The position numbers and the translations under genes are program-made. The notes below the pieces were generated by a model, which worked only from the letters and a program-made list of their open reading frames with translations, searched no databases and was not told the DNA's origin. From positions 2,356,001 through 2,420,000 of the forward strand of contig NZ_JBGNYA010000001.1 of NCBI RefSeq assembly GCF_041477585.1: a stretch of DNA of 64,000 nucleotides. Reading direction: 5' to 3'. This stretch comes from Halobellus sp. MBLA0158 (GTDB taxonomy: Archaea > Halobacteriota > Halobacteria > Halobacteriales > Haloferacaceae). Shown piece after piece: positions 26,805-55,125 of the stretch. Within the stretch, counting starts at the first letter, position 1, and every line of letters starts with the position of its first letter.

Positions 26805-27267
26805 AGTGTGTCGATACAGAAGGAGGGTAATAATACTTAGGCACAGTAACATATTTCATAATCGTACACGGATTGCCCAAATCGGAACTTGTCGATACCG
26901 AAGTTCTCCGCCCTGCTCAGATTTTCATATAGTGATAATCGACGAATTTTTGACCTTCAGACGTCTATTACTGTTTACCGCATTTCCGACATAGATATGT
27001 TGAGATCGAAATTTTTAGCCGATAGAAGAAATATATAATTTATGGTAGGTTCTAAAAACAAAGTATGATAATAGAGCATCTTACCCTGAGCCACAAATAT
27101 CATATTTCGCATATTAACACACGTTTCGACCACAATCAGCGTAACAACGGCAATTCAGTATAACCGACCAGACGACAGCACGCGATCCGGCCACAAGAGA
27201 AGAACCGCTGCGATATGCGCAGCCTTCCGCCGATGGGTTCAAAACATCCGGCCGACGTGATACGCCT
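26805..27267. other. AT-rich divergent intergenic region
   Basis: This separates the giant surface-protein gene from the DUF4350-MoxR block. A TATA-like box for the giant gene is at 26831-26839 and a weaker one for the plus-strand gene near 27237-27247. An inverted repeat AAATAT-C-ATATTT lies at 27095-27107. No gene is supported. The GC content is far below that of regions 1 and 2. Confidence 0.6.
26831..26839 (-). promoter_or_regulatory. TATA-like box for the giant surface-protein gene
   Basis: On the minus strand this reads TAAGTATTA, 27-35 bases before the ATG at 26804, which supports that start over in-frame codons upstream. Confidence 0.5.
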
Positions 27268-35879: not shown

Positions 35880-35958
35880 TCACTGCTAGCTACCCACTAC
35901 GTGTCTGTTCGGCATCCGAGTGCGGGAACCACGCAGTACCGACTGCTTCTCACTGCTG

Positions 35959-38916: not shown

Positions 38917-40552
38917 TCGTCGTCACCAGGTCGGACTCGCGATCGTCGCCCTCCTCGGAGTCGCACTGGCCTTCCGTGCGGGGCCGCTCTACTGGAGCCA
39001 GTATCCCTCGACGTTGGACGGATTCAATTACGCCGCCAGCGCGCAGACGGCGATGGACACCGGCACGCTCGGGCTCACCGGACGGGCCGACAATCTCTTT
39101 TTCACGGCCGTATTCGCAGTCGCCGGTCTGGTGTTCGATACGCCTGCGCTTCGTGTGACCCAGCCGGCGGCGACGGTGATCGGGACCGGAATCTGTCTCG
39201 TCGGGGTGGCGATCGCGCGTCGTGCAGTCAAGGAATCCGCGACAGTTTCGGTGAGCGCGTCCGCGGTCGCGCTCGTGGTCGCCGGGCTTCTGGCCGTCGA
39301 GGGCCTATTCCTCCGTCGGACGACCGTTCCCGACTCCGACTTGGTCGGCATTCTCTTCACGCTGCTCGTCGCCGTCTCGCTCCAGTACGCTTACCGGACC
39401 GGTCGGCGACGGTGGTACGGGATCTCCGGCCTCTTCCTGGTCATTTTCCCGATCCTCCACACGTTCACGTCGTTCGTCGTTGGACTGGTGATCACGGGGC
39501 TGACCGCGCGGCACGTCTCCCGGCGGCTCTCGCTTCGGTCTCTCGTGGGCGGCGTAGTGATCGCGGGCGGATTCTGGGCCTATATGGCGATCTACTACCG
39601 GACGGCCGAGACGTCGCTGTCGCTGGCGGTGCCGTACGTCGATCGCGTCACGGCGTATCCGGGGCTGTTCGTCGCGTGGGCGATCGTGCTGGTCGTCGGG
39701 ATCGTCTGGCTCCAGCACACGAGCCTCCGGATTCGGCGGGCGATCTACCTCGGGACGATCGGTGCCTTCTTCCTCGTCGTCGCGCTCAACGCCTTCACGC
39801 CGATCTACCCCGGGACGGCGAGCACGCCGCAGATCGTCCTCGCTCTCGTCGCGCTCCTAGCATTCGTCGCGCTGAGCGCAGCGGTGTCTCTCGATCTCAT
39901 CAGCGAGGGGGACGGCGGCACGATCCTCCTGGCGCTCTTTCTGTCACCGGCAGTGATCATCGGATTCAGTCTGACTGCCTCCCTCACGGCCGAGTACTTC
40001 GCGACGGCGATGCGCGCACAGACGTTCCTGCATTTCCCCGTCGTCGCTGTCGCCGGCGTGACGCTCGCCCGCTTGCTCAGCCGCGATGGAAGCAGCGGCG
40101 TCCGCCGTTTCCTCCGACTCGCGATCGTCGTCGTGGTCGTCGTCGCGACCGTTACGACGGCGCCGCTCGCGTTCGTCAATATGGACACCGGTTCGGTCCC
40201 GAGCACGACGCTCGGGTCGGAGTACGAGAGCGTCGAGTTCGTGAGCACGGAGTACTCGGGCGCGTGGACGACCGATCACTCCCTGAGTCGGGTCGGAGGG
40301 CACACCTTCGGGGCGAACGTCTCCGTCACGCCCACCGCGTCCTGGCTCTCGGGCGGACCGTCACCGCGTTGTGCCGTCCTCTCCCAGCAGTCGTGGACGA
40401 CGACCGGTGCGCACCTGTTCCCGAGCGGTCCGGAGACGGTCCCGTCCGACGTGTATCGGGAGTGGACGGGTTCCCGAAACGTCGTCTACACCGCTGGTGG
40501 ACTCGACCCGACGGTCGTGTCGCTGCCGCGGTCGAACGCGACGGTATGTTGA
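38903..40552 (+). CDS. Polytopic membrane protein, GT-C glycosyltransferase-like
   Basis: This 549-residue protein has about twelve hydrophobic segments and an extracytoplasmic C-terminal domain from about 440. The first loop, YWSQYPSTLDGFNYAASAQ, has an acidic residue where GT-C enzymes place their catalytic Asp, but no STT3 WWDYG motif is present. The second loop RRTTVPDSDLVGILF also carries acidic residues. The C-terminal domain contains CAVLSQQSWTTTGAHL. It overlaps the FtsX gene by 14 bases (8 if the ATG at 38909 is used), so it is translated from the same mRNA. GT-C glycosylation is a reasonable guess; a transporter is not excluded. Confidence 0.78.
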   Translation: MRMSSRRHQVGLAIVALLGVALAFRAGPLYWSQYPSTLDGFNYAASAQTAMDTGTLGLTGRADNLFFTAVFAVAGLVFDTPALRVTQPAATVIGTGICLVGVAIARRAVKESATVSVSASAVALVVAGLLAVEGLFLRRTTVPDSDLVGILFTLLVAVSLQYAYRTGRRRWYGISGLFLVIFPILHTFTSFVVGLVITGLTARHVSRRLSLRSLVGGVVIAGGFWAYMAIYYRTAETSLSLAVPYVDRVTAYPGLFVAWAIVLVVGIVWLQHTSLRIRRAIYLGTIGAFFLVVALNAFTPIYPGTASTPQIVLALVALLAFVALSAAVSLDLISEGDGGTILLALFLSPAVIIGFSLTASLTAEYFATAMRAQTFLHFPVVAVAGVTLARLLSRDGSSGVRRFLRLAIVVVVVVATVTTAPLAFVNMDTGSVPSTTLGSEYESVEFVSTEYSGAWTTDHSLSRVGGHTFGANVSVTPTASWLSGGPSPRCAVLSQQSWTTTGAHLFPSGPETVPSDVYREWTGSRNVVYTAGGLDPTVVSLPRSNATVC

Positions 40553-40645
40553 GTTCTGACACTCGTCTTTGGCCGTATGTAGCACCGATGCCGCCCATAG
40601 GTCCGGAACGAACAGAGTCAGTTCAATCAGACGACGGGAGCAAAT

Positions 40646-40654
40646 GATATACAT
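40646..40654 (+). promoter_or_regulatory. TATA-like box for the ABC ATPase gene
   Basis: GATATACAT lies 27-35 bases before the ATG at 40681, so the ATPase and second permease may have their own promoter. Confidence 0.5.
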
Positions 40655-40680
40655 ACCGGACCCGACAATCGAGGCACACG

Positions 40681-41370
40681 ATGGCCGGCCCAGTCCTCCG
40701 TGGCGAAGAACTCACCGTCGAACGAGGCGGGACCCGTATTCTCGATTCCGTCTCGCTGTCGGTCGATCCCGATGTCTCGTTGCTCGTCCGCGGCGCCAGC
40801 GGCGCCGGCAAAACGACGCTTTTCAACGTGCTCGGGCTCTTGACCACGCCGACGAGCGGCTCGCTGTTCGTTCGCGGCGAGGACGCGAGCGAGCTCCCAG
40901 AGCGGAAGCGTGCCGTCGTCCGCCGGGACACGATCGGCTTCGTCTTCCAGGATTTCCAGTTGATCCCGGACCTCTCGGCCTGGGACAACGCCGCGTTACC
41001 GCAGGACCACACCGGCAGCCGCGACGAGGACTGGCTCGGCGAACTCTTCGGCGCCTTGGGGATCGAAGACCTCGCGGACCAGTATCCGGCGACGCTGAGC
41101 GGCGGCGAAAAACAGCGAGTCGCCATCGCCAGGGCGTTGGCGAACCGCCCGGCGGTCGTACTGGCCGACGAGCCCACCGGCCAGCTCGATCCGAACACGG
41201 CCGAGCGCGTGCTCGATCTGCTCTTCGAGGTGAAATCACAGACCGACACGGCGCTCGTGTTGATCAGTCACGACCGAGGGCTGGCGCATCGGTTCGACGA
41301 GACGGTCCTGCTTCGGGACGGTCGGCTCGTCGAAGATAGCGACGATATCGACTACTCGCTGCCGGAATGA
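40681..41370 (+). CDS. LolD/MacB-type ABC transporter ATPase
   Basis: This 229-residue protein is a complete nucleotide-binding domain: Walker A GASGAGKT (38-45), Q-loop Q90 in FVFQDFQ, signature LSGGEKQRVAIARAL (from 139), Walker B VVLADEPTG (159-167) and switch H197 in LISHDRG. The short length and QLDPNTAERVLDLLFEV placement match the LolD/FtsE/MacB class that works with FtsX permeases. It is the only ATPase in the block and lies 18 bases before the second FtsX permease, so it probably serves both. Confidence 0.95.
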   Translation: MAGPVLRGEELTVERGGTRILDSVSLSVDPDVSLLVRGASGAGKTTLFNVLGLLTTPTSGSLFVRGEDASELPERKRAVVRRDTIGFVFQDFQLIPDLSAWDNAALPQDHTGSRDEDWLGELFGALGIEDLADQYPATLSGGEKQRVAIARALANRPAVVLADEPTGQLDPNTAERVLDLLFEVKSQTDTALVLISHDRGLAHRFDETVLLRDGRLVEDSDDIDYSLPE

Positions 41371-41378
41371 GATCGTTC

Positions 41379-41383
41379 GGAGG
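41379..41383 (+). promoter_or_regulatory. Shine-Dalgarno sequence for the second FtsX permease
   Basis: GGAGG lies 5 bases before the ATG at 41389, marking an internal operon start. Confidence 0.55.
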
Positions 41384-41388
41384 CTGAA

Positions 41389-44300
41389 ATGCGGTTCGAG
41401 TCCACGCTCGTGGCGTCGTGGTCGCGCCGGGAGTGGCTGAGCGTCGCCGTGATCACCGTCACGGCCGCGTTCCTCGTCGGCTCCGGCGTCTTGTTGCTCA
41501 CGGTCGGCTCGTACACCTCGACGCTCGAAGACGACCTCGGAAGCTCCGCGTCTGCGACGTACTACGGCTCCTACGAGACGGCGCAGACGTCCGCAGACGG
41601 GGACGACATCGTCTTCCCGCTCGTGCGTGTGTCCGTCGACGGCGACGGAGCCCACCGTGCGGTGGGGATTCCGCCCGACGCACCCGAGCGGATCGAGTCG
41701 GCGTCGGTCGCGTGGGAGTCGGCCGCGATCCCGCGGCCGCCGAGCGAGGGTCTCGCTGGCCCGGTGACGCAGCCGACGACACAGGAGGTCGACGGGGCGT
41801 CGATGCGCGTGACGCCGCATTCGACCGATTCACGTCTCTTCGCGTCGACGTGGTACATCGGAAGCGCCGAGACCGTCGCGAGCCTCGGCGACGCCGGCGC
41901 GCTGGTGATCGATTCCGGTACTGCCGGACAGAGCGGTGAGCAGCCGACGTGGCGACTCGACGGAGTCCCACTGATCGCGGCACTTCCGTTCCTTCTCCGT
42001 GGGGTCACTCAGATCATCCGAACGCTCTCGCTGGCAGTCGTCGGGAGCGGTGTCCTGATTCTCGTCGTCGTCTACAACGTCACGCGGATGTCGCTTCGCG
42101 ACCGCCGCCAAGAGATCCGGGTCGCCCGCGCGACGGGGATTTCGCCCCTCCGATTGTTCGGCCTACTGGAGGGTCGGGTCGCGACCGTGACCGGGACCGG
42201 CGTCCTACTCGGATTCGCGGTCGGGCTCATCGCCACGAACGCGGTGATCAACGCGGCCACGTACGCCGGGTTGCCCGTCACGCTGCGGACGGTCCTCACC
42301 CCGGAGATACTCCGGTTCGTTCTCCTCGTCAGTGGATTCTTGTTCGGGATGGGACTGCTCGCGGGTGCGCTGGCGGCGGTGCCGGTGATTCGACGCGATC
42401 CCGCCGCGCTCGATGGGTCGGGTCGCATACGGGGTACCGGGCGCTCGCTCCCCGAGCGGCTCGTGTCGCTAGCGCGCCCGACGTTCGTCACCTGGCGAGC
42501 GCTGGTCCCGACGACGGCGACGCTCGCGGTGTTCGTGCTGATCGTGCTCCTGATCTCGGCGATCGGCGGGGCGGTGGCGCCGCTGGCGACCACCTCCAGC
42601 GGAACAGTCGTCGAAAGCGGCGCGCCGCACCCGCTGAACAGCCGACTCAGCGAAGACTACGCGAGCGTCCTCCGAGGTCAGAACTTCACCGCGAGCCCGG
42701 AGGTCCTCTACGCGCAGACGCTCGACGGCGATCCGTACCTGATCCGCGGCGCGAACTTCACCTCCTTCAGCGCCGTCACGGGTGCCCGGCTACAAACCGG
42801 CCACGCCCCGCGCGCGACCGATCAGGCGGTCATCGGAACGAGCCTCGCAAGTACACTCGATCTCGGCGTCGGCGAGACGATCACGGTCGGCGGCAGTGTC
42901 ACGCCCGGCGTCCGCCGCGTTCGTATCGTCGGAACGTTCGCCGGAGACGGGATCACGGACGATCAGCTCGTCGTCCCCCTAGCTACGGCGCAGGAGTTAG
43001 CCACAGGAACGGGTCAAGTCCACCTTATCCGGACGAACGGAACGACGCAGGCGTTCGACGACTTGGCCCAGGACTCGGGTGGCATCGCCGTGACGGGTCT
43101 GTCGGGACAATCGTCGGTCGCAGCGGGGAGTGACTACACGGTCACGGTGACGACACAGAACCTCGGCGACGAGCGCGACTCCCGTACGGTGACCGTTCGC
43201 CTCGGGAATCGGAGCCAAACAGTCGAGGTCACCGCGGCAGCCGGGAGTACCACGCGGACGGACGTGACGTTCGAGAGCTTGGAGCCGGGTACCTACACCG
43301 TGGCGTCCGACGGGGTTACCAAGTCGCTCGATGTGTACTCTCCGCGTGCGTTCGTCATCCCGCAGGAGTATCCCGATCGCGCACCCCCGGGAGTGACGCT
43401 GATCGTACCGGCCGCGCTCCGGAACGGGACAACGGTCCCGGACGCGACCGTGACGCTGGGGGAACGACGTGCCCGGACCACGGACGAAGGGGTCGCACCG
43501 ATCCGCGTACCCACCGTCGAAGGTGAGTACACCATCACCGTCGAGAAGGAGGGATACGCGACAGTGACTCACACTCTGGTGGTCGAAGACGGGGCCGCAC
43601 AGGAACTGACCGGCCGACTCGACGTCCAACCCACCACTGGCACCAGACTGACCGACCCGACCGTCGAGATCCAGCTCGGGAACCCGTGGGGGACGTTCTT
43701 CGTTCGGAACGTCTCGCTCGTCACGCCCTCGACGGTCGAAACGCGAACCGTCGAGATGGCCGGTGGAAACGTCACGCGAATCACGGTCCCGGCCGCCGAT
43801 GCGGGCTTCGATCGCCGAATTGCGCCCGGATCGTACGATCTGCGATTGGTATCGGACGGCACGGTGCTCGCGACGGCGACGTATCGTGTCAGCGGCGACG
43901 AGCGTGTCGCCGCCACGCTGGCTTCCCAGGGCGAGTATTCCTCGGGCACGGCCATCGGACGCGCGATCGAGAACGTCTTCGGCAACGTTCAGGTCCTGTT
44001 CTTGGTGATCGTTGGACTCGCGGGCCTCAGCACAGTGGGCGGGACGACGGCGACGTTCGCCTACGCGGTCCATACGAGCCGTCGAGAGATCGGTATCTAT
44101 CGCGCGACCGGGGCATCTCCGCGGCGCGTTCTGCGATTGGTGTTCGCCGACGCAATTCGCGTCGCCGTTCCAGCCGCGATAGTCGCGTTCGCTCTCGCGT
44201 ACGCCGTCCTGCGCGGACTGGTGTGGGCGGATCTACTGGTCGTGTTCGGCGTCCGTCTGTCGGTGCCGCTGTCGCCGTTCGCGGTCGGCGCGACCCTACT

Positions 44301-44394
44301 CGGAGCGGTCGCACTCGCCGCAGTGAGTGCGCTCGGCGTCGCTCTGATGATCGCCTACGCGACCCCCGGCAGGCTGCTTGCTGCGGGTCGCTGA
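41389..44394 (+). CDS. Large FtsX-type ABC permease with CARDB/Ig-like ectodomain (copy 2)
   Basis: This 1001-residue paralogue of the 35959 permease has the same domain order. It has an N-terminal membrane span (about 17-40), FtsX core 1 with RDRRQEIRVARATGISPLRL, a MacB-like segment (GHAPRATDQAVIGTSLAST, GDGITDDQLVVPLATAQELA), a CARDB-like domain (SDYTVTVTTQNLGDERDSR), an Ig-like domain (VPDATVTLGERRARTTDEG) and FtsX core 2 with SRREIGIYRATGASPRRVLR. The two copies flank the ATPase and the GT-C-like gene, as expected of a heteromeric complex. Carboxypeptidase-regulatory-like turns in the ectodomain match modules of the giant protein encoded 1.4 kb further on. Confidence 0.9.
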   Translation: MRFESTLVASWSRREWLSVAVITVTAAFLVGSGVLLLTVGSYTSTLEDDLGSSASATYYGSYETAQTSADGDDIVFPLVRVSVDGDGAHRAVGIPPDAPERIESASVAWESAAIPRPPSEGLAGPVTQPTTQEVDGASMRVTPHSTDSRLFASTWYIGSAETVASLGDAGALVIDSGTAGQSGEQPTWRLDGVPLIAALPFLLRGVTQIIRTLSLAVVGSGVLILVVVYNVTRMSLRDRRQEIRVARATGISPLRLFGLLEGRVATVTGTGVLLGFAVGLIATNAVINAATYAGLPVTLRTVLTPEILRFVLLVSGFLFGMGLLAGALAAVPVIRRDPAALDGSGRIRGTGRSLPERLVSLARPTFVTWRALVPTTATLAVFVLIVLLISAIGGAVAPLATTSSGTVVESGAPHPLNSRLSEDYASVLRGQNFTASPEVLYAQTLDGDPYLIRGANFTSFSAVTGARLQTGHAPRATDQAVIGTSLASTLDLGVGETITVGGSVTPGVRRVRIVGTFAGDGITDDQLVVPLATAQELATGTGQVHLIRTNGTTQAFDDLAQDSGGIAVTGLSGQSSVAAGSDYTVTVTTQNLGDERDSRTVTVRLGNRSQTVEVTAAAGSTTRTDVTFESLEPGTYTVASDGVTKSLDVYSPRAFVIPQEYPDRAPPGVTLIVPAALRNGTTVPDATVTLGERRARTTDEGVAPIRVPTVEGEYTITVEKEGYATVTHTLVVEDGAAQELTGRLDVQPTTGTRLTDPTVEIQLGNPWGTFFVRNVSLVTPSTVETRTVEMAGGNVTRITVPAADAGFDRRIAPGSYDLRLVSDGTVLATATYRVSGDERVAATLASQGEYSSGTAIGRAIENVFGNVQVLFLVIVGLAGLSTVGGTTATFAYAVHTSRREIGIYRATGASPRRVLRLVFADAIRVAVPAAIVAFALAYAVLRGLVWADLLVVFGVRLSVPLSPFAVGATLLGAVALAAVSALGVALMIAYATPGRLLAAGR

Positions 44395-44515: not shown

Positions 44516-45652
44516 ATGCCCTCTGCTCGTGCGATTCTCGCTGTACTCCTCATTGTTTCTCTGAGTATTGCCCCAGTCACGGGGCAGTCCAGCGAGGAAT
44601 ACGAGATCACGCTCGATCAGGAGACCGACATCCCAGAACGGACGCTCGATACTGACTCCGGAGAGTTCACTATCTCTGTTGTCGGGCGATACGCCAAGGG
44701 CGGGACCGTCGAGGTTTCGACATCTGCCCCGTCTGGTACATCGTACGCAATCCGTCTCATCGACAGTCAGGAACGACTCCGAGCGAGCGCATACGAGGAC
44801 GGCGACGGCAATGCACGCTTCTCGCTTGACCGCTACGCGGCCGGCACCTACGCGATCGTCATCACCGATGAAACCGACGCTGACGACGTCCACGCGCTCA
44901 AACCGCTCGTGATATACGGGTACACCGTCACGCAACGCACGCCGAACGAAACGGAGACAGATTCGACCCTCGACGTCGAGTTCAGTCTCACCAAGGCGGA
45001 CGACGTTGATGTAGACGAACCCCCGGCGAGCGTTGAGGTTGGTCTCGGCAACGACTCCACGTCCATCACTACGGAGGCGACACGCACTGAAGATCTCAAC
45101 TATACCGCCGAGATCGACACGAGCGCGCTCTCGCCTGGCGACTACCGTCTCTATACGGGTGTACAACGCGACAACACCATCTACGGGTATCAGGAACTCA
45201 TCGGCGTCAACACCTATCAGGTCTCCGTAGTCGAAGCCTCGACGGAGACTCCGACAGCAACCGACACGCAGACCACGACGGGTGGAGCGGACGGCACCCA
45301 ATCGGGACCGGGCGCGCCACCGGCCGGAGCCCAAACGACAGCACCCGCGGCCACAAACACCCCAGAGAATAGAACAACGACGACCACGATGAGCCCAAAT
45401 TCGACTCACACCGCGACGACGGAACCGATCTCCGTCACCGATACCACGGGAACGTCATCGATATCGACACGACAAACACCAAGCGATGATGACTCGGCGA
45501 GTGCGCCCTCGCCGGCGTCCGACTCGGCTACGTCGGAGGTGTCTCAGACGGAAGATGGATCATCGACGCCGGTGAGTACGCCGGTATTGCCCGACGGTGC
45601 TGTGTTCGGGTTGTGTCTCGTCGCCGTGGCAGTGCTGTCTCGGCTTCGATGA
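44516..45652 (+). CDS. Surface glycoprotein with Thr/Ser-rich stalk (paralogue A)
   Basis: This 378-residue protein has a signal peptide (AILAVLLIVSLSIAPVTG), two beta-rich domains (about 30-145 and 150-240) and a Thr/Ser/Pro-rich stalk of about 100 residues. It ends with a short hydrophobic segment (VFGLCLVAVAVLSRLR). The core phrases KPLVIYGYTV, LSPGDYRLYTGV and RYAAGTYAIVI match QPVVVSGYDF, LQPGEYRLYASA and SLDSGTYLLAL in the protein at 54010-55125, so the two are paralogues. The C-terminus looks like a degenerate PGF-CTERM (LPDGAVFG). A membrane-anchored cell-surface glycoprotein is the best call; the function is unknown. Confidence 0.85.
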   Translation: MPSARAILAVLLIVSLSIAPVTGQSSEEYEITLDQETDIPERTLDTDSGEFTISVVGRYAKGGTVEVSTSAPSGTSYAIRLIDSQERLRASAYEDGDGNARFSLDRYAAGTYAIVITDETDADDVHALKPLVIYGYTVTQRTPNETETDSTLDVEFSLTKADDVDVDEPPASVEVGLGNDSTSITTEATRTEDLNYTAEIDTSALSPGDYRLYTGVQRDNTIYGYQELIGVNTYQVSVVEASTETPTATDTQTTTGGADGTQSGPGAPPAGAQTTAPAATNTPENRTTTTTMSPNSTHTATTEPISVTDTTGTSSISTRQTPSDDDSASAPSPASDSATSEVSQTEDGSSTPVSTPVLPDGAVFGLCLVAVAVLSRLR

Positions 45653-45753: not shown

Positions 45754-48700
45754 TCAGCGCCGCCTGAAGAGGAATATCACTCCAAACAGCGCTACCACAG
45801 CGGGGACGAATCCGAATCCGGGCGCGCCAGTGCCACTCTCAGTCGTTTCTTCGATGACGGTCACGGTGCCTGCCTGAACCGAGTTATCTCTGTCACTCTG
45901 ATTCACAACGGTGATCTCGTACTCTCCAGCGCTACTGAATGGGATGCCTATCGGCAACTGAACGGTTTTAGTTGAATCTCCGGAGACGTTCACCTCGTCG
46001 CCGAATTTTTGTTGTCCGTTCGCCAGGACTCGGAGGGGTATGTTACCAGGTTCGTCACCGGTGTTTTGCACTGTCACATTGACATAGACGCTTTCGCCGA
46101 CCGTGACGTTCTTCGGAGATACGTCCGCGTCCACGAGTGTGACGTTCGCAGGCTTCGGCACGACAGTCACCGACCCATCCCAAACACTGTCTCCGGCAGC
46201 GGAGAGGGTCAGATCATACGCGCCAGCCGTCTCAACGGTCGTTCGAAGCGTCGTGGTAGCGGTACTACCCGACTCGACTTCCACGTTTTCCGATACCGAG
46301 ATCGTCCCGTCCACCGAAGTCAGTTCGACGGTCGTAGTCCCGACGGCTCCACCCTGATTATTGAGCTCGACATCGACGCTGATCGGATCGCCTGCAGTGA
46401 CCTCAGTCTCCCGGAGGCTTACGTCAGTGATGGAGATGTCCGATTTCGGCTCGGTGGCGTCAGTCTCGTTCAGCGTCACAACGACCGTTTCGTCGCCACC
46501 CTCTTCTGTGACGTTCACTTCTCTGATGTAGGTCTCATCTACGTACTGATCCGCGTTCGGCGGCCGTTCGACCCGAATCGTGTAGTTGCCGGCGGCCTCG
46601 ATACCGCGATGATCACCCGCTGTGAAGTAGCCCTGCTCGTCTGTCAGACTTCCAAGTCTGGCACTCTCGACACCGGGCGTGCCGGACTGATTGGCAAAGA
46701 TGGTCACGAGCGCATCCCCGACTGGATCCCCGGACTCGTTTTCGACGCTGACGTGGAGTATGCCGTGGGAGTCCGGAACCGTTTGTGTCTGCAGATTCCG
46801 ATCCTCAGTATCGACGTCGACTGTGGGAAGTTCGTAGAAGTCGGTCACGCCGTCGCGTGGCGCAACTTCGCCCGTTTCCGAATCCCGCTGGATGACGGTG
46901 AGACTGTGGCTCTGATTGGCTCCAACCCCGACGGTGAACCATCCGGTGTCGTTCGTTTGTCCGGTCGGGAATCCGGCTTGGCTCCGGCCGACGAAGACGT
47001 CGAAGTCGGTCAGGGCAGCTCCCGATTCGTTCGCCAATCGGCCGGTGACGTTGACGCGGTCTCTGACGACGAGAGTGACGTTGCGCTTTTCGCTTACGTC
47101 GATTCTCGTCGCGTTCCACGCGTACTCGTCGGTCTCTCCGACACCGATACGGAGCGTCCCGTTGACCTCGATGCCGGGCGAGTTGCTCCCGTTGAGGATG
47201 ACCTCGCCGTCGTCGTTCGTCGTTCCCGGGTGGTGTGCCGAGGCGGGACCCGAGTACGTGTTCAGGTCGACCGCCGCGTCCGCGACGGGCTCGCCGTCGC
47301 TGGTCTCGACGGTGATGTTCACGAGATGGGCCTGCGGGAGCGTCAGATCACCCACGCTCCGGTCCTCGTCTTGGACTTCGGTCACCCCGAAGGTGTGCAG
47401 ATCGGGACGGCCGTCCTTCGGGAAGTTCGCTCGTCCGTCCTCCCAGTCGGTCTGTTTGAACGCGAGTGCGTAGAACTGGTTCGGTTCGGGATACAGCTCA
47501 AAGTGACCGGTCTCGTTCGTGAGTCGGTGATCGCCGCCATCGCCGAACAGCTCCATCGTGTATCCGGCCGTGTCGTTGCCGTTCCGGTAGTCGACGCTGC
47601 CGAAGACGGTCACGTTGCGGTTGAGCGTGATGTTGACAGTGTCATCCGAGGTCACTTCGATCCGTTCGGTCTCGGTTCTGAGATCCGCCTCGTCGGGAGC
47701 CGCGGCCCGGATGTCGACCGAACCGTTCACCTCGACGGTGAAGCTGCCGTCGTCGACGACCGTCTCGCCGCCCCACTGATAGGCGTCGTTCGCGGTACTC
47801 CAGAGCCGGACCGTCGCGTTCTCGACTAGGTCGTCGTTCGGACCGACGACGTTTACCGTGAGATTGTGCGGTTCGGGGAGCGTGACGTTCCCCAAGTCTC
47901 CCTCCGCGCCGCTCGTCACGGTGGAGATGGCGTAAAAGTCCGGCACACCGTCACGCGGGTAGGGGAGTCTGGCCGGGCTCCCCTCGTCGGCCTGCACGAA
48001 TCCGAGGTGGTACGCGCCCTCTGCCGGGACCTGTGCGTCGAAGAAGCCCGTCTCGTCGGTGTGAACCGTCGCACCGGCAGAGCGGTCTTGCTCTGCCGCG
48101 ACCACCTGAATGCGCTCGTCGCCTGCGGGCGTCACTCCGTCCGGCTGACGAATTGTGCCGTTCACCCTCAGTGCCTCCGCGAGCTGGATGGTGACGTTCC
48201 CGGGCTCGTCGACGACGATGTTCCGACGGTTCGCGTCGGAGAGACCGGAATCGTCGGGGACGTCGACGTAGACGTCGATCGAACCGTTCACTTCGATACC
48301 GGGCTCATCCGCGCCGTCGAAGACGAACGACCCGTTTTCGTTCGTCTCGCCAGCAACTCCGAGAGCGAAGTTCTCCTCGACGTCGTTATCGGACACGTAG
48401 ACGGGGATGTCAGATGCGTTCGTGCCGTCTGGGTTCTTCACGGTGATGTCGAACGGATGGCCGACGCCGAGCTGCTGTTCGGCCACCTGTTTGTCTGTCG
48501 CCTCGGTCTGGATGACGGTCAGTGATTGGACGTCGGGGACTCCGTCCTGTGGGAAATCGACGTCGGTCCCTTCTCCATCCTGTCGGAAGCCAAGCTCGTA
48601 CGTCGAGTTCGGCGCGAGCGTGAGTTCGTACTCCCCGTTGTCGACGATCGGTGATTCATCGTTAATCGCCCCCTCGCGCGACCGGGCGAACACTTCGCCG

Positions 48701-51700
48701 TCAGTTACGGAATCTCCGCTGGCATTGATTACCTGACCGGTGACGTTGATCAGCTTCTCGGCTTCGAGGACGATCGAATCGTTTGAATCCACGATCGTCG
48801 ATCTCTCAGCGTAGTAGCTACGGGAGTCCAATTCGACATCGATGGTCCCGTTGACCTCGACGCCCGAGGTACCGCCGAGTTGGACCCATCCGGTCTCGTT
48901 CGTCTGGGCTTCGACTCCGCTTACGCCTCCGTTCGGGTTCCGATGGACTATCTCAACCGTAGCATCCGCGAGCGGTGCCGTTCCGTTCGTCACCTGAATC
49001 TGCAGCCGATTTCCACGGGGTAACGAGATGTCGTTCCGCGTGCTACCATCGATCGGAACCCCGCCGACACCGTAGATGTCCGGGACGCCGTCGATCGGGA
49101 ACGTGATGTTCTCGCTGTCCTGACGGAACCGGACCTGGTAGCCCTCCGGAAAGAGCTGTGTGCGGTATCTTCCGCTCTCGTCCGTGACCGATCGCGTCCA
49201 GAGCGCCTCGTCCCCGCCGTCAGTCCCGTCGTAGACGACAGAACTGTTCGGCACTGCGTCGCCGTCGGCGTCGGTGACAGTTCCGTTGACCTCGTAGCCG
49301 GGCAGTTCGACGACGATCCGCTCGTTTCCGGTTCGGTCGTCGGTCACGGTCGCATTTGTCGAATTACTGATCCCCCTGAAGCGAGCGTAGACGGTGATGT
49401 TACCGACGAACTCGAACGTTGTGTACTCACCGTCGGTGACGTAGCCGGTCTCGTTGGTGGCGTCGCGCTCTCCCTCTTCGATTATCGCGTCGCCGTTGGT
49501 GTGTGTGATTGCGGCGTCCGCATCGGGGATGGGTTCGCCGTTCGGCCCGACGACCTGAACGGAGACATTGTATGCATTCGGAATCGTAATATCACCCACA
49601 TCAGCGGGCGGGGACACACGCTGAATCGCATAGAGGTCCGGCACGCCGTTCGGGGCCCCTGGGTCGTCGTCACCGAAAGCTAACGTATATGTTTCGTCGG
49701 CCGATCCGCCGCTGATGGTGAAGTTACCGTCGGCACCGACGGTGCTGTCGACACCCTCGATATCGCCTCCGTCAGTCTGTCTGAAGAGCCCGATCGTATC
49801 GTCCTCTAATGAGGCGCCGCTTTCTGCCGAGAGCGTGCCGGAGACGTCCGGTCTGGTCAATGCTATGACGACGCTACGGTCCCCTTTCGTATCGTCAATC
49901 TGCAAGGTCGTCGAATTGTTGACCCCGTTGTAGTTGGCCCAAACAGTTACGTTGCCGACGAGTTCGAGCGGAGCAGAAGCTGCCGAGGAGAGGTAGCCTG
50001 TCTCATTGGTCACGTTTCGCTCCCCTTCTTCGACAACCGCGTCACCGTTCTTGTGACTGATCGCAATATCCGCTCCCTGAATCGGCTCGCCGTTCCGATC
50101 GACGACTCGGACGGAGACGCTGTACGCTTCCGGGATCGTGACGTTACCAACGTCAACGGGCGGGGAAACACGTCGAACTGCATAGAGATCGGGCACGTCG
50201 TTAGAAATGTCACCGGCATCCTCGTCACCGAATGCCAGCGTGTAGTTCTGCTCAGCCGACGCAGCACCGACCGAGAACTGACCGCTTTCGTCAACAATCG
50301 TCTCTACGCCTTCGACCTCGCTATCGTCGGTAAGCCTAAAGATACCGACCCGATCGCTCGCCACTGATCCACCCGAGGCACTGAGATTCCCGGTGACGTC
50401 GGCGCCGGATAGTTCCACGGTGACTGTTCGATCGCTGTCGACCTGGATGTTCGTTGAACCGCCGACGCCACCGAGCGCGGCGTCGATGGTGAGGTTCCCG
50501 ACGAGTTCGAAGGTCGTCGCACCGTCTATCGAAAGGTACCCGCTTTCGTTCGTCGCGTCTCGTTCGCCTTCTCGCAACACTGCTCCATCGTTTCTATGCT
50601 CGATCACGACATCCGCATTCTCGATCGAGTTTCCGTATTGGTCAGTCACCTGGATCGAGACGTTGTGTGCCGTCGGGAGAGTGGCATTGACCGCCACAGG
50701 CGGCGTGACATTCCCAATTGCGTAGAAGTCAGGGACTCTGTTGAATGTGACACCAGCGTCATCGTCGCCGTACACAAGCGTGTGATTGACGCCCGGATGA
50801 TCTGTTTCGATCCGGAATTGCCCGTCGTCGCTGATCTGGGCCTCAAACAGATCAGTACCTCTTTCTACGTTCCCGGTGTATGCAACTACCCTGTCGCCGA
50901 TCAGTGACGTGCCGCTCTCAGCTGAGATCACCCCACCGATTCGGGTCGGCGGGACTGACAGTGGATTCGCACAGGTGACATTGCCGATACAGTCGGCCCC
51001 GTCGACAGCCGGATCACCCCACCAATTGTAGGTAGCGTTGACCCACGGTTCGGGCGATCCATATGTCTCTATATCAGTTGCTGAACCCTGAACCACCACA
51101 CTTTGAGCAATTCGAAGCGTTCCGGAACCGGTAACAAAGACACCTGCTTCGGAATTATTGACAATCTGACTCTGATAAATCTCCCAATTGCCAGAGACAT
51201 TGCCCCATATGCCGTACGTATTGTTTCGAACGACGGTTCGGTAGATCTTCCATCGACTGCTTGATTGTGCAGTACTCAGACCGTCCCGGCCGTTTTGAAT
51301 CGTAGACTCAGAGACGCTCCAATTCCCTCCCGAGTAATCCGCATTGATCGGACCGCTCGTTACATTGTGAAGCAGCCAGTTCGCATTGGAGTCATACCCG
51401 GAGATAGCAATATCTCCATTTAATCCAGACATTCTGACATCTGAAAGAAGCCACCTACCGTCCGAGAAGCGACCATCGAGAGTAGATCCATCCAAGAACT
51501 CAGTACTTTGAATGGACCAGTTCCCAGACGCTGAATCGCCGTTTATTTCGGACCCTTCGCGGAGAGTTACGTTTTTGAGATACCAGTCACTGGCAGAGGA
51601 GTCAGCATAGATTGCTGTACTGTTCGTGAATGTGGTATCTTGAATAGCCCAGACACCTGTAGAATCATCGGATCGAATTCCATTATTCCCGTACGAACGG

Positions 51701-53778
51701 ATAATTACATCCTGAACCGTCCAGTTAGCGGCAGAATCGACAGCATAGATACCAGTTCTTATCGAAGAATTAATGTGTATGTTATGGAGCTGTAAGGTAC
51801 CACGCGAATTCCGCGCCTCTATTCCGTCGCCCTCCGGAATCGAGATATTTCGGAGATATATGCTCCCGGTAGTATATGAGACCTTGATTGCCTGTGAGTA
51901 GTTACTAATTGTGAATCCATCAATAGTCGGTGACACAGCACTCTCTTCAGGAATCGTGATTCCAAATCGGATCGTTCCAATCGGTGTCCCATTCAGAGTA
52001 GCACCTTGCGGAGCAACTACAGAGATGTTCTTATCTACGGTGACCTCTTCGTAGTAAGTCCCTGGCCGAACTTCGACGATTTCACCCTCTGTCGCGTTGT
52101 CGACACCAGCTTGGATACTCGTGTAATTAGCCCCACCATCCGCGTCGACGACTATGTCGCTCTCGGCGGTAAACGAGACAGTCCGTGTCGAGAAGTGCGG
52201 GATATTGAACGCGACCCAGGAGCTGTTTCCGGGACCGGCGTCCTCCCCAACGTCGAAAGCCCGTTGGTCGCCATCGAGGTACATCGTGAGGTTTTCGACG
52301 TCTTGAGACGCCGATATCGCTCGTTCCTGGATATAAAACGTCACATTCTCAGCAGTCTCAGGGGCGGTGATCGCGATCGAGTAATTCGTTGAGCCTTCGC
52401 GGAGTAGCTCAACCGAGGTCTCGGACGCGACTGAGGATTCAACACTGATCCTTCCCGCGAGGCTGGAACTGACCCGCGGTGATGACAGTCGCACCGTGTC
52501 AGTGAACGGCGCGATTCCCGATCCATACGCCGAACCGCCACCACCAGGAGCCGATCCGCCCTGATCGGTAGTCTGCCAGGCGGGGGTCGGATAGTCCCGC
52601 GGCTGTATCATCCAAACGGTGCCGAAAGCTAACCCCTGCATATTCGTTCGAGCCGCTTCGCCAGTCATTTCGGCAGTCTTGAGCGGTGTCCCTCCGTCCG
52701 AGTTCGTCTGGCCGGTGGTATTCACACTCCAGTACGAGTCTGTGATTATACCGCCATCGTTGATCCCGACTAGTCCTCCTACGATATCGGAGTCAGTCAC
52801 AAAACCGACTGCCATCGTCTCCCGTATCGTCCCAAAGTTGACTCCGACGAGTCCGCCTACCTTGACAGAGCCAGCCACATCACCAAAGGCAGATGCGTTT
52901 CGAATCGTGGCTTCGTTCTCACCGACGAGGCCACCCACGTTCACCGAACCCGTCACATTTCCGCGCGCTGATGCTTTCGCGATTGTCCCCTCAAAATTGT
53001 ACCCGACGAGTCCACCGATATCAGTAGAACCATTGACCGACCCCATCGCTGATGTCGCCCGAATCGTTCCGTTAGAATTGTGCCCGACGAGTCCACCGAT
53101 ACTTGTCGAACCGTTCACCTCAACGTTGGTCGACACACTCCGAATCGTGGTCTCTATGTTCATCCCGGCGACTCCACCGACGTTCTCGTTGCCGGACACC
53201 TGACCGATCGTAGACACCTCTTGTACTGCGCTCTGATAGCTATAGCCGATGAGAGCACCGACGTACTTGTGACCGGTCACGTTCACTTCGGTAAGAGAAA
53301 TATCGCGAACCGTTGCAGCGTTTGTTCGTCCGAATAGGCCGACTCGATTCGTCGATGAACGATTTATATAGAGTTGATCGATTTCGTATCCGTTTCCATC
53401 GAGGGTCCCCCCAAACGCTTGGGAGTCGTTGCCGATCGGATCGAATCCACTTCTGCCGTTCCACACTGAGGTATTTGAGGCATTAACATCCGAGACGAGT
53501 TCGTAGTGCGCATCGAGATCATCTTCCATCGCCTGCAGCTCCGAGGCGTTCGAGATTTCGTACGGATCCTCTTCAGTTCCAGATCCGGGCAGTTCCGACG
53601 CGTTGACGTCGACGAGGTCGGCCTGAACGGAACCACCACTCGCGGAAGCTGTCAGCGCCGACTGCTGGCCCGCGTCCGAGAACTGCCCGATTCCGGCCAC
53701 TGGACTCGTCGTGAGAAACAGACAGAATGCGATCACCAGCGCTGTGCGGCCGCTCTGCCGGAGTGTTGAGCCCCCCAT
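45754..53778 (-). CDS. Giant PGF-CTERM surface protein: GLUG repeats, beta-helix, eight long carboxypeptidase-regulatory-like repeats, CARDB
   Basis: This 2674-residue protein has a signal peptide (TALVIAFCLFLTTSPVAG). Residues about 117-373 hold six or seven GLUG-type repeats (VNVGGLVGENEATIRNAS and variants). A PGF-pre-PGF-like stretch follows at about 425-540 (VTFYIQERAISASQDVENL), then a right-handed beta-helix from about 540 to 927 (GEIVEVRPGTYYEEVTVDK) ending at NWWGDPAVDGADCIG. Residues 943-2443 are eight repeats of about 185 residues, each with a carboxypeptidase-regulatory-like strand pattern and a GVPDxYAI-like signature. Two CARDB domains precede the PGF-CTERM tripartite end (GAPGFGFVPAVVALFGV then RRR), the archaeosortase A signal. 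It is probably lipid-anchored and part of the cell coat. The AT-richer N-terminal third differs in composition from the rest. Confidence 0.92.
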   Translation of the reverse strand: MGGSTLRQSGRTALVIAFCLFLTTSPVAGIGQFSDAGQQSALTASASGGSVQADLVDVNASELPGSGTEEDPYEISNASELQAMEDDLDAHYELVSDVNASNTSVWNGRSGFDPIGNDSQAFGGTLDGNGYEIDQLYINRSSTNRVGLFGRTNAATVRDISLTEVNVTGHKYVGALIGYSYQSAVQEVSTIGQVSGNENVGGVAGMNIETTIRSVSTNVEVNGSTSIGGLVGHNSNGTIRATSAMGSVNGSTDIGGLVGYNFEGTIAKASARGNVTGSVNVGGLVGENEATIRNASAFGDVAGSVKVGGLVGVNFGTIRETMAVGFVTDSDIVGGLVGINDGGIITDSYWSVNTTGQTNSDGGTPLKTAEMTGEAARTNMQGLAFGTVWMIQPRDYPTPAWQTTDQGGSAPGGGGSAYGSGIAPFTDTVRLSSPRVSSSLAGRISVESSVASETSVELLREGSTNYSIAITAPETAENVTFYIQERAISASQDVENLTMYLDGDQRAFDVGEDAGPGNSSWVAFNIPHFSTRTVSFTAESDIVVDADGGANYTSIQAGVDNATEGEIVEVRPGTYYEEVTVDKNISVVAPQGATLNGTPIGTIRFGITIPEESAVSPTIDGFTISNYSQAIKVSYTTGSIYLRNISIPEGDGIEARNSRGTLQLHNIHINSSIRTGIYAVDSAANWTVQDVIIRSYGNNGIRSDDSTGVWAIQDTTFTNSTAIYADSSASDWYLKNVTLREGSEINGDSASGNWSIQSTEFLDGSTLDGRFSDGRWLLSDVRMSGLNGDIAISGYDSNANWLLHNVTSGPINADYSGGNWSVSESTIQNGRDGLSTAQSSSRWKIYRTVVRNNTYGIWGNVSGNWEIYQSQIVNNSEAGVFVTGSGTLRIAQSVVVQGSATDIETYGSPEPWVNATYNWWGDPAVDGADCIGNVTCANPLSVPPTRIGGVISAESGTSLIGDRVVAYTGNVERGTDLFEAQISDDGQFRIETDHPGVNHTLVYGDDDAGVTFNRVPDFYAIGNVTPPVAVNATLPTAHNVSIQVTDQYGNSIENADVVIEHRNDGAVLREGERDATNESGYLSIDGATTFELVGNLTIDAALGGVGGSTNIQVDSDRTVTVELSGADVTGNLSASGGSVASDRVGIFRLTDDSEVEGVETIVDESGQFSVGAASAEQNYTLAFGDEDAGDISNDVPDLYAVRRVSPPVDVGNVTIPEAYSVSVRVVDRNGEPIQGADIAISHKNGDAVVEEGERNVTNETGYLSSAASAPLELVGNVTVWANYNGVNNSTTLQIDDTKGDRSVVIALTRPDVSGTLSAESGASLEDDTIGLFRQTDGGDIEGVDSTVGADGNFTISGGSADETYTLAFGDDDPGAPNGVPDLYAIQRVSPPADVGDITIPNAYNVSVQVVGPNGEPIPDADAAITHTNGDAIIEEGERDATNETGYVTDGEYTTFEFVGNITVYARFRGISNSTNATVTDDRTGNERIVVELPGYEVNGTVTDADGDAVPNSSVVYDGTDGGDEALWTRSVTDESGRYRTQLFPEGYQVRFRQDSENITFPIDGVPDIYGVGGVPIDGSTRNDISLPRGNRLQIQVTNGTAPLADATVEIVHRNPNGGVSGVEAQTNETGWVQLGGTSGVEVNGTIDVELDSRSYYAERSTIVDSNDSIVLEAEKLINVTGQVINASGDSVTDGEVFARSREGAINDESPIVDNGEYELTLAPNSTYELGFRQDGEGTDVDFPQDGVPDVQSLTVIQTEATDKQVAEQQLGVGHPFDITVKNPDGTNASDIPVYVSDNDVEENFALGVAGETNENGSFVFDGADEPGIEVNGSIDVYVDVPDDSGLSDANRRNIVVDEPGNVTIQLAEALRVNGTIRQPDGVTPAGDERIQVVAAEQDRSAGATVHTDETGFFDAQVPAEGAYHLGFVQADEGSPARLPYPRDGVPDFYAISTVTSGAEGDLGNVTLPEPHNLTVNVVGPNDDLVENATVRLWSTANDAYQWGGETVVDDGSFTVEVNGSVDIRAAAPDEADLRTETERIEVTSDDTVNITLNRNVTVFGSVDYRNGNDTAGYTMELFGDGGDHRLTNETGHFELYPEPNQFYALAFKQTDWEDGRANFPKDGRPDLHTFGVTEVQDEDRSVGDLTLPQAHLVNITVETSDGEPVADAAVDLNTYSGPASAHHPGTTNDDGEVILNGSNSPGIEVNGTLRIGVGETDEYAWNATRIDVSEKRNVTLVVRDRVNVTGRLANESGAALTDFDVFVGRSQAGFPTGQTNDTGWFTVGVGANQSHSLTVIQRDSETGEVAPRDGVTDFYELPTVDVDTEDRNLQTQTVPDSHGILHVSVENESGDPVGDALVTIFANQSGTPGVESARLGSLTDEQGYFTAGDHRGIEAAGNYTIRVERPPNADQYVDETYIREVNVTEEGGDETVVVTLNETDATEPKSDISITDVSLRETEVTAGDPISVDVELNNQGGAVGTTTVELTSVDGTISVSENVEVESGSTATTTLRTTVETAGAYDLTLSAAGDSVWDGSVTVVPKPANVTLVDADVSPKNVTVGESVYVNVTVQNTGDEPGNIPLRVLANGQQKFGDEVNVSGDSTKTVQLPIGIPFSSAGEYEITVVNQSDRDNSVQAGTVTVIEETTESGTGAPGFGFVPAVVALFGVIFLFRRR

Positions 53779-54009: not shown

Positions 54010-55125
54010 TCAGTCACGCAGACCGGTGAAAAGCAGGACAGCAATCCCGAGGAGCGTCGTAACGGCAGTAAAGCCCGGCGTAGCTACGGGCGTCCCCGAC
54101 AGACGGGACGATCCGTCAGTAGTCGATGCTATGGACTGGGTGTCGACCGTTGGGTTCGGATCAGCGGCACCTCCAGAGGCATCCACGGGATCGGAGGTCC
54201 GTTGAGTGGGCTTCGGAGTCGTCAGTGCCGGAGAGCGCTGCGTCCGCGATGGAGTCACGGGAGACTGGGTCGCAGCCGGCGAAACAGCTGGAGATTCCAC
54301 GCTCGGGGTCACTCCCCCGCCCGATGGTGTCGCTGGCGACTGGCCGGCCAATCCTCCGGACTGCCCGGGGGTCCTCGCCGTGGTTGGTTCGTCGCTGGTG
54401 GTGGTGGGCGTCGGCGTCGACTCGCTCTCCGATTCAGCGATCGTCAGCGTCTGCACGGAGCTGGCACCGGCGATCTGACTGTCGTTGTGGGCGCTGGCGT
54501 AGAGCCGATACTCTCCCGGCTGGAGGTCGCCGACGAGTACCGTATATTCCCGTGTATCGACGAGGTGGGCCATCGTGTATCGGTGCATCGAATCGTTCAT
54601 CACGACGAGTTCGATGTAAGTCGGGAGCGGAGCGTCGCCAGTTAGCTGAACATCCACCGAGACGGATTCCTCGGGCGACGCGTCGGCGGGCGCGTCGACC
54701 GAAAAGTCATAGCCTGAGACGACGACCGGCTGGACCTTCTCGAAGCTTCTATCAATAGAGAGTGCCAGGAGATACGTACCTGAATCCAGAGAGTCCGTCC
54801 CGTCGAGTGTGTACGTCCCGTTTTCGTTGCCTTCGACCGTCGTAATCCGCTCGCCGTCGTAGCTGTATAAGAGGATACGGAAATCGCCGTTCCCGGGGCG
54901 TGCCACGCTCGCGCGGATCACAGAACCCGTCTTGACGCGACCGAGGGACGAGACGTTGAAATCGCGGCCGATGATGGTGAGCGTTCGCTGTGGCGTATCG
55001 ATACTAGTCGTGGCTTCGATTGTATAGTCTGCTGTTGTGTTTTCGTCCGCAACCACACCTCCGGACAGTGCGACGAGTGAGACCACGAAAAATACGAATA
55101 ACACGAACAGATGTCCGCGGGTCAC
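54010..55125 (-). CDS. PGF-CTERM surface glycoprotein with Ser/Thr/Pro stalk (paralogue B)
   Basis: This 371-residue protein has a signal peptide (LFVLFVFFVVSLVALSGGVV), two beta-rich domains to about residue 230 and a Thr/Ser/Pro/Gly-rich stalk of about 110 residues. It ends with TPGFTAVTTLLGIAVLLF and GLRD, a good PGF-CTERM signal for archaeosortase A. The domain shares several phrases with the protein at 44516-45652. It lies 231 bases upstream of the giant gene on the same strand. Likely heavily glycosylated and lipid-anchored at the cell surface. Confidence 0.88.
   Translation of the reverse strand: MTRGHLFVLFVFFVVSLVALSGGVVADENTTADYTIEATTSIDTPQRTLTIIGRDFNVSSLGRVKTGSVIRASVARPGNGDFRILLYSYDGERITTVEGNENGTYTLDGTDSLDSGTYLLALSIDRSFEKVQPVVVSGYDFSVDAPADASPEESVSVDVQLTGDAPLPTYIELVVMNDSMHRYTMAHLVDTREYTVLVGDLQPGEYRLYASAHNDSQIAGASSVQTLTIAESESESTPTPTTTSDEPTTARTPGQSGGLAGQSPATPSGGGVTPSVESPAVSPAATQSPVTPSRTQRSPALTTPKPTQRTSDPVDASGGAADPNPTVDTQSIASTTDGSSRLSGTPVATPGFTAVTTLLGIAVLLFTGLRD

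Follow-up and report, generated by a model that had tools for sequence, protein, structure and literature searches.

The DNA analysed here is a stretch of 64,000 nucleotides from Halobellus sp. MBLA0158 (contig NZ_JBGNYA010000001.1, positions 2,356,001 to 2,420,000 of the forward strand; this whole stretch is called the window, and coordinates are counted from its first letter). It carries the gene of a giant surface protein of 2674 amino acids, which contains an eight-fold repeat of a two-part module of about 185 residues, the subject of our analysis (Table 1). The protein starts with a predicted signal peptide, followed by GLUG repeats, a right-handed beta-helix, the eight modules (each with a half A and a half B), CARDB domains and a PGF-CTERM tail; a Pfam scan found no carboxypeptidase catalytic domain in it, and there is no tRNA or RNA element within the window. 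The C-terminal tail (PGFGFVPAVVALFGVIFLFRRR) has all three parts of the PGF-CTERM definition (PGF, hydrophobic helix and basic tail) and archaeosortase A (ArtA, TIGR04125, 363 bits) is encoded in the same genome. Haloferax ArtA processes and lipid-anchors proteins with a PGF motif, a hydrophobic stretch and a basic tail (available part of PMC7157517).

The eight units are divergent, have 180-196 amino acids each and span positions 46468-50943 of the minus strand, within 20 bases of the limits given in an earlier note on this DNA (46450-50950). The repeat proposed there is real: when each unit is compared with a profile hidden Markov model (HMM) of the other seven, E-values range from 2.3e-44 to 1.0e-24, while the best of 999 shuffles per unit has an E-value of 0.0058 to 0.11. 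A PD-type motif starts at residues 1015, 1195, 1379, 1565, 1747, 1945, 2124 and 2311 of the protein (spacing 179-198 residues), and its description as a nearly invariant anchor is accurate: the Asp is present in all eight units and the Pro in seven (Thr in unit 8), with Tyr, His or Gln two positions after the Asp. Elsewhere in the genome (3.29 Mb, two contigs), the profile finds a single weak match to a B half. When a tree is constructed from the units of the window and of four further loci, L039 (Halobellus clavatus), L061, L062 and L064, units group largely by array position and not by protein: window units match the same-position units of Halobellus clavatus at 51-76%, while the best matches within the protein are at 29-53%, and of the three units of L064, one groups with units 1-3, one with unit 7 and one with unit 8. 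The array thus appears to be old and stable, with no visible homogenisation within the genus. The repeats are rich in acidic residues (17.5%, with 5.4% basic residues) and have no Cys. There are 56 N-glycosylation sequons, compared to 14.1 in shuffles (none of 2000 shuffles had as many), which suggests that the repeat region is heavily N-glycosylated.

AlphaFold2 models unit 4, from a 16-row alignment of window and Halobellus clavatus units, with a pLDDT of 84.4 and a pTM of 0.77, and places strands from residue 2 to 91 and from 96 to 178. In VIA-align, half A (residues 1-95) aligns to the transthyretin-like domains of carboxypeptidases N and D (Z 10.2) and half B (residues 94-182) to 3e8v (Z 11.4) and to the archaeal S-layer protein SlaB (8qox_B, Z 9.8). 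Since both halves align to such domains at Z-scores of about 10-11, each unit is predicted to be a pair of transthyretin-like (CarboxypepD_reg) beta-sandwiches. The earlier note had read each repeat as one carboxypeptidase-regulatory-like unit: the family is correct, supported by matches to PF13620 as well as by the fold, but both halves, not one, have this fold. It had also placed the PD motif at the end of the first half, which is not what the model of unit 4 shows: the motif occupies a loop (residues 59-72) and the start of the penultimate strand of A (73-80), and half A continues for about 20 residues, with this strand and then a short final one that ends in LP, before B begins. In a model of units 4 and 5 together (pLDDT 81.6, pTM 0.68), the final strand of one B (173-181) continues into the opening strand of the A that follows (183-190).

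At the sequence level, the whole protein scores 100 bits with PF13620 (curated cut-off 32.3), while units 4 and 8 are the only single units above the cut-off; PF02369 (Big_1) matches the units too. Matches of PF13620 to half A (units 3-6) extend from the start of the half to profile position 54-61 of 82 and end before the motif, and matches to half B reach profile position 72-81 of 82 in units 1, 2 and 8. No Pfam or NCBIfam model spans both halves (about 185 amino acids) in any of the eight window units; among 73 modules scanned, for which family counts were seen beyond unit 4, the families counted are single-domain or weak. The claim that there is no named domain with this pair of halves is thus consistent with the Pfam and NCBIfam scans, which yielded no end-to-end match and no named family for the A-B pair. 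We also found no description of the module in the open-licence full-text literature, as judged by titles and the beginnings of abstracts, and a search with the motif string returned nothing related.

What sets the module apart from ordinary CarboxypepD_reg domains are two stretches, a loop in half A with the pattern Q...[FY]P[RK][DN]G[VI]PD and an insertion with G[IV]E in half B. Weak relatives were fetched from 12 loci (seven outside and five inside the order), and 10 alignments, those of all loci except L119 and L122, were inspected. None of these 10 relatives has the PD loop: a gap or unrelated residues take its place, and most of them also lack the GIE stretch. The suggestion that the PD motif lies outside ordinary CarboxypepD_reg therefore holds for the relatives aligned, as it does for the profile matches, which stop before it. 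Ordinary tandem CarboxypepD_reg relatives also score lower than the A-B modules.

The module recurs in haloarchaea. In samples of archaeal genomes from the family, class and phylum, a profile built from the eight units finds it in 42/170 genomes (14/28 genera) of the family, in 72/391 genomes (33/86 genera) of the class and in 18/392 genomes of the phylum sample, all 18 within the order of the window. With a profile of 73 modules and a threshold of 1e-6, 69 of the 392 phylum genomes have some match, ten of them outside the order (best E-value 1.7e-11); the 10 weak matches that were inspected are ordinary CarboxypepD_reg-like arrays or domains. Because these relatives are ordinary arrays or domains that have no PD loop and mostly no GIE stretch, the A-B pair, including both insertions, seems to have been derived in haloarchaea from ordinary tandem CarboxypepD_reg domains. 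Single-sequence tblastn searches, which give a weak negative, found no match in plasmids or phages and the idea of a module on a mobile element or phage was dropped. A weak B-half-like match also occurs alone in small open reading frames (ORFs), often of about 160 amino acids, of many haloarchaea (for example G104:C1:259157-259426 and G209:C2:492351-492683).

At 41 loci chosen from the hits, proteins have between one and nine modules and are predicted to be secreted or lipid-anchored. Pfam partners were counted in 25 of the 42 module proteins at hand, the one of the window included: S8 subtilase (8), PKD (6), beta-helix (6), NosD (5), CARDB (5) and GLUG (4). By simple pattern, many C-termini have a PGF tail; others are dockerin-like or have a plain hydrophobic tail. 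Since the partner domains change while the module stays constant, the module probably behaves as a spacer or stalk. Several small proteins have a Tat-type twin-arginine start and a single module. In one such single-module family (L051 4167-5123, L055 4507-5499, L056 4112-5290 and L058 4277-5245) there is a conserved RGF[LFI]SN followed by a hydrophobic C-terminal tail, and V, H, Q and H, respectively, stand in place of the motif Asp. Two modules of a protein of L077 (2490-11678, residues about 1195-1854) have long insertions that separate the penultimate strand of A from the last, yet retain the loop in the form PRDGN-VD.

Conservation was determined in 154 rows, consisting of 153 distinct modules (among them the non-module row L109, which was dropped for the coupling analysis) and the untrimmed unit 4 of the window; another set has 113 modules, without L052, a near-copy of L051, and without partial matches (profile start >5 or end <165). 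In the numbering of unit 4, the conserved positions are D73 (142 of 154 rows), D69 (131, with Asn in 19), G70 (132), P72 (102) and Y75 (109) in the loop region, P93 (146), and E147 (146) and G150 (144) in half B. The strongest coupling of all 15051 pairs is between residue 68, which directly precedes the DG of the loop, and residue 97, in the first strand of B: its z of 8.3 compares with a maximum of 6.7 in 15 column-shuffled controls, and in 14 of 15 half-samples it is among the top four pairs. Side chains are exchanged between the two positions, with R/K68 occurring with V/L97 and I/V68 with R97. Because 68 and 97 covary, the PD loop likely packs on the start of B. Residues 59 and 69 are paired as Q-D in 115 rows and as D-N in 17 (other combinations in 22), while Q-N or D-D never occur; in a permutation test this was reached in 0/10000 permutations at redundancy cuts of 40-60% and in 8/10000 at 35%.

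The most likely reading, in our view, is that a module of familiar fold, for which we found no name or description, builds a stalk in which the PD loop acts as an internal joint; we rate it as probable that the array is a stalk and the PD loop the joint between A and B. An ordinary tandem CarboxypepD_reg array would have been the origin, with the first domain of each pair gaining the long PD loop and the second the G[IV]E insertion. The PD loop would pack at the A-B junction on the linker and the first strand of B and so fix the angle between A and B, and B would pass into the next A almost without linker. This would place 16 sandwiches in a row between the PGF-CTERM membrane anchor and a head of GLUG repeats and beta-helix. 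Such an array would form a stiff rod, heavily N-glycosylated and roughly 50-60 nm long (our estimate, at about 3.5-4 nm per domain), that may hold the head above the S-layer.

Several observations weigh against this reading. The PD loop is the worst-modelled part of unit 4 (mean pLDDT 49 for residues 61-70). Couplings 72-92 (z 5.6) and 59-69 (z 4.9) are within the range of the shuffled-column maxima (4.3-6.7), and their lowest ranks among the half-samples are 143 and 1166, respectively; moreover, the pair 59-69 was picked by eye and its D-N rows are mostly from one orthologue group, with others in L054, L066 and L067. D73 and E147 give no coupling signal (z 0.9), as expected for near-invariant positions. 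The tail scores just below the curated cut-off of TIGR04126 (22.2 bits against 24.5), and likewise with Pfam PF18204 (16.4 against 18.8). Finally, single-module proteins exist, such as the one of L053 with 243 amino acids, a Tat-type start and one module, and the module can function without an array.

The earlier note had suggested a distinct calcium- or ligand-binding surface, and this is not supported: acidic residues of a TSP3/EF-type loop are mostly absent, the module has many unrelated partners and covariation puts the loop at the A-B junction. A related and, in our view, unlikely possibility is that the PD loop binds a divalent cation (Ca/Mg) at this junction, with one ion, held by D69 and D73 of A and E147 of B, stiffening the rod. 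Calcium between domains stiffens cadherins in a similar way, a likeness in working only and not in relationship. The three acids are near-invariant, and the ordinary relatives that were viewed have no PD loop and in most cases no G[IV]E stretch. Both D73 and E147 are substituted in each of three rows (L103, L032 and L036), of which L032 and L036 are, however, very alike and have only Asp in place of E147. The DGVPD string shares the D-G-x-x-D spacing of TSP3/EF-hand-type calcium loops, which have the pattern DxDxDGxxD, but the module loop sits in a beta-sandwich and the full pattern is not found: of 131 rows, 11 have Asp and 10 have Asn at position -4 from D69, while at position -2 there is Pro in 78 and Glu in only 14. 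A calcium loop of the TSP3/EF type was rejected because the acids at -4 and -2 are mostly missing. D69 is moreover Asn in 19 of the 154 rows, and one Tat-type single-module group has lost D73. Divalent cations are used at haloarchaeal S-layer interfaces, and the Haloferax S-layer protein, a row of six Ig-like domains, has cations at the hexamer and trimer interfaces (available part of PMC8640222). A slightly more doubtful elaboration is that the PD loop of A and the GIE loop of B, both acquired, come together where A joins B and fix the interdomain angle by binding a divalent ion, which would make the pair an unnamed haloarchaeal rod module; if true, salt-tolerant, ion-tuned stalks would be common to proteases, beta-helix proteins and other giant surface proteins.

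An adhesin role, in which the module would bind a ligand or surface and the PD loop would belong to its binding face, is improbable, even though the protein is predicted to be at the surface, structurally similar domains occur in adhesins and pilins and the motif is kept in some single-module secreted proteins (L053 and L057): the core of the loop is strongly conserved while partner domains vary widely, the strongest coupling is to the start of B and the sequence suggests neither a pocket nor an aromatic platform. Finally, ordinary tandem CarboxypepD_reg domains with a loop conserved by chance would explain the resemblance of the fold to known domains and the matches of PF13620 to 64/73 modules at an E-value of 1e-3, but with A-B pairs in 33/86 sampled genera, the motif Asp in 142/154 rows and ordinary tandem relatives that score lower and have no loop in the 10 alignments viewed, this is very improbable.

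The stalk reading can be compared with known systems. The CarboxypepD_reg (PF13620) or transthyretin-like C-terminal domains of carboxypeptidases N, D and M have the same fold as both halves, and both halves match PF13620 in sequence; in contrast to them, half A of the module has the long [DN]GxPD loop before the penultimate strand and half B the G[IV]E insertion, the halves are paired in the modules examined and the giant protein has no carboxypeptidase catalytic domain. SlaB, the membrane anchor of the Sulfolobus S-layer, is the closest archaeal parallel among those seen: it is similar to half B in sequence (E-value 3.1e-6) as well as in fold, with a match that covers half B only. It has three consecutive beta-sandwich domains above a membrane-inserted coiled coil (available part of PMC10903991). 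Like the giant protein, it is a surface protein whose beta-sandwiches follow one another above an anchor in the membrane; it differs in having three sandwiches and a coiled coil, in being trimeric and part of a lattice and in its type of anchor.

The best Foldseek matches of the two-unit model are bacterial surface proteins with sandwiches in tandem, as here: Bacillus anthracis TIE (6fwv_B, E-value 1.6e-12), streptococcal pilins and the B domains of SdrD. Identity to these is about 8-14%, and the interdomain geometry is not shared because the rmsd over both domains is large. Most Foldseek rows that span both halves of a unit have an rmsd of about 10 Å or more, and 6fwv_A, aligned with VIA-align, has 13.1 Å over 151 residues. 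This poor superposition of two domains does not demonstrate that the A-B arrangement is new. Viral proteins are also among the fold matches of the unit (predicted structures of HHIV-2 VP17 and HCIV-1 VP6), and the capsid protein VP6 of halovirus PH1 has a predicted CarboxypepD_reg domain (available part of PMC3622292); the same type of domain may occur in the surface proteins of virions and in the stalks of their hosts.

The giant gene is flanked by two genes for small surface-type proteins of 371 and 378 amino acids, neither of which has a Pfam match at 1e-5. The two are apparently paralogous, with cross-matches in L039 at 26-27%. Counterparts in other Halobellus lie near the giant gene: of both proteins in L039, and of the 371-amino-acid one also in L061 and L062. 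Adjoining the giant gene, at 35920-44394 on the plus strand, are genes for two FtsX-like permeases, the second with a PEGA domain, and for an ABC ATPase; an 81% identical homologue of the second permease is beside the giant gene of L039. A further giant protein of 3691 amino acids (15777-26852, minus strand) has a TPTPTP-rich start, about nine CARDB stretches, about twelve choice-of-anchor-D/HYDIN-type domains and a PGF-pre-PGF domain.

Table 1. Features of the giant surface protein gene and its neighbours; residues refer to the 2674-amino-acid protein and positions to the window.
Feature	Position	Strand	Basis and remarks
Giant surface protein gene, 2674 aa	45754..53778	-	ORF, translation, family scans
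N-terminal signal peptide, approx. residues 1-30	53689..53778	-	Predicted; hydrophobic stretch read by eye
GLUG repeats, approx. residues 160-370	52669..53301	-	PF07581 E 6.2e-10, 4 stretches; limits approximate
Right-handed beta-helix, approx. residues 550-940	50959..52131	-	PF13229 E 9.3e-5; TIGR04247 (NosD-like) E 7.8e-6; both below cut-off
Module unit 1 (A+B), 180 aa	50404..50943	-	Motif NRVPDFYAI, motif Asp = residue 1017; jackknife E 6.2e-35
Module unit 2, 184 aa	49852..50403	-	Motif NDVPDLYAV; jackknife E 1.8e-40
Module unit 3, 185 aa	49297..49851	-	Motif NGVPDLYAI; jackknife E 2.3e-44
Module unit 4, 182 aa	48751..49296	-	Motif FPIDGVPDIYGV; jackknife E 1.8e-25; modelled alone
Module unit 5, 193 aa	48172..48750	-	Motif FPQDGVPDVQSL; jackknife E 1.0e-24; modelled together with unit 4
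Module unit 6, 186 aa	47614..48171	-	Motif YPRDGVPDFYAI; jackknife E 6.5e-28
Module unit 7, 186 aa	47056..47613	-	Motif FPKDGRPDLHTF; jackknife E 6.6e-27
Module unit 8, 196 aa	46468..47055	-	Motif APRDGVTDFYEL; jackknife E 9.7e-26
CARDB-like domains, approx. residues 2445-2640	45859..46446	-	PF07705, 2 stretches, best 2550-2635, E 1.1e-5; outer limits approximate
PGF-CTERM-type archaeosortase tail, residues 2648-2674	45757..45837	-	PGF, hydrophobic stretch, Arg-rich end; TIGR04126 E 7.8e-5
Small surface-type protein, 371 aa, just upstream of giant gene	54010..55125	-	tblastn 52% in L039, 49% in L061 and L062
Small surface-type protein, 378 aa, downstream, convergent	44516..45652	+	74% in L039

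The module is a building block that occurs in 72/391 sampled haloarchaeal genomes, about a fifth, where Pfam shows only partial CarboxypepD_reg or Big_1 hits; with a dedicated model, many giant surface proteins and secreted subtilases could be annotated. The module also makes it possible to test how a common beta-sandwich turns into a rigid, paired unit in brine.

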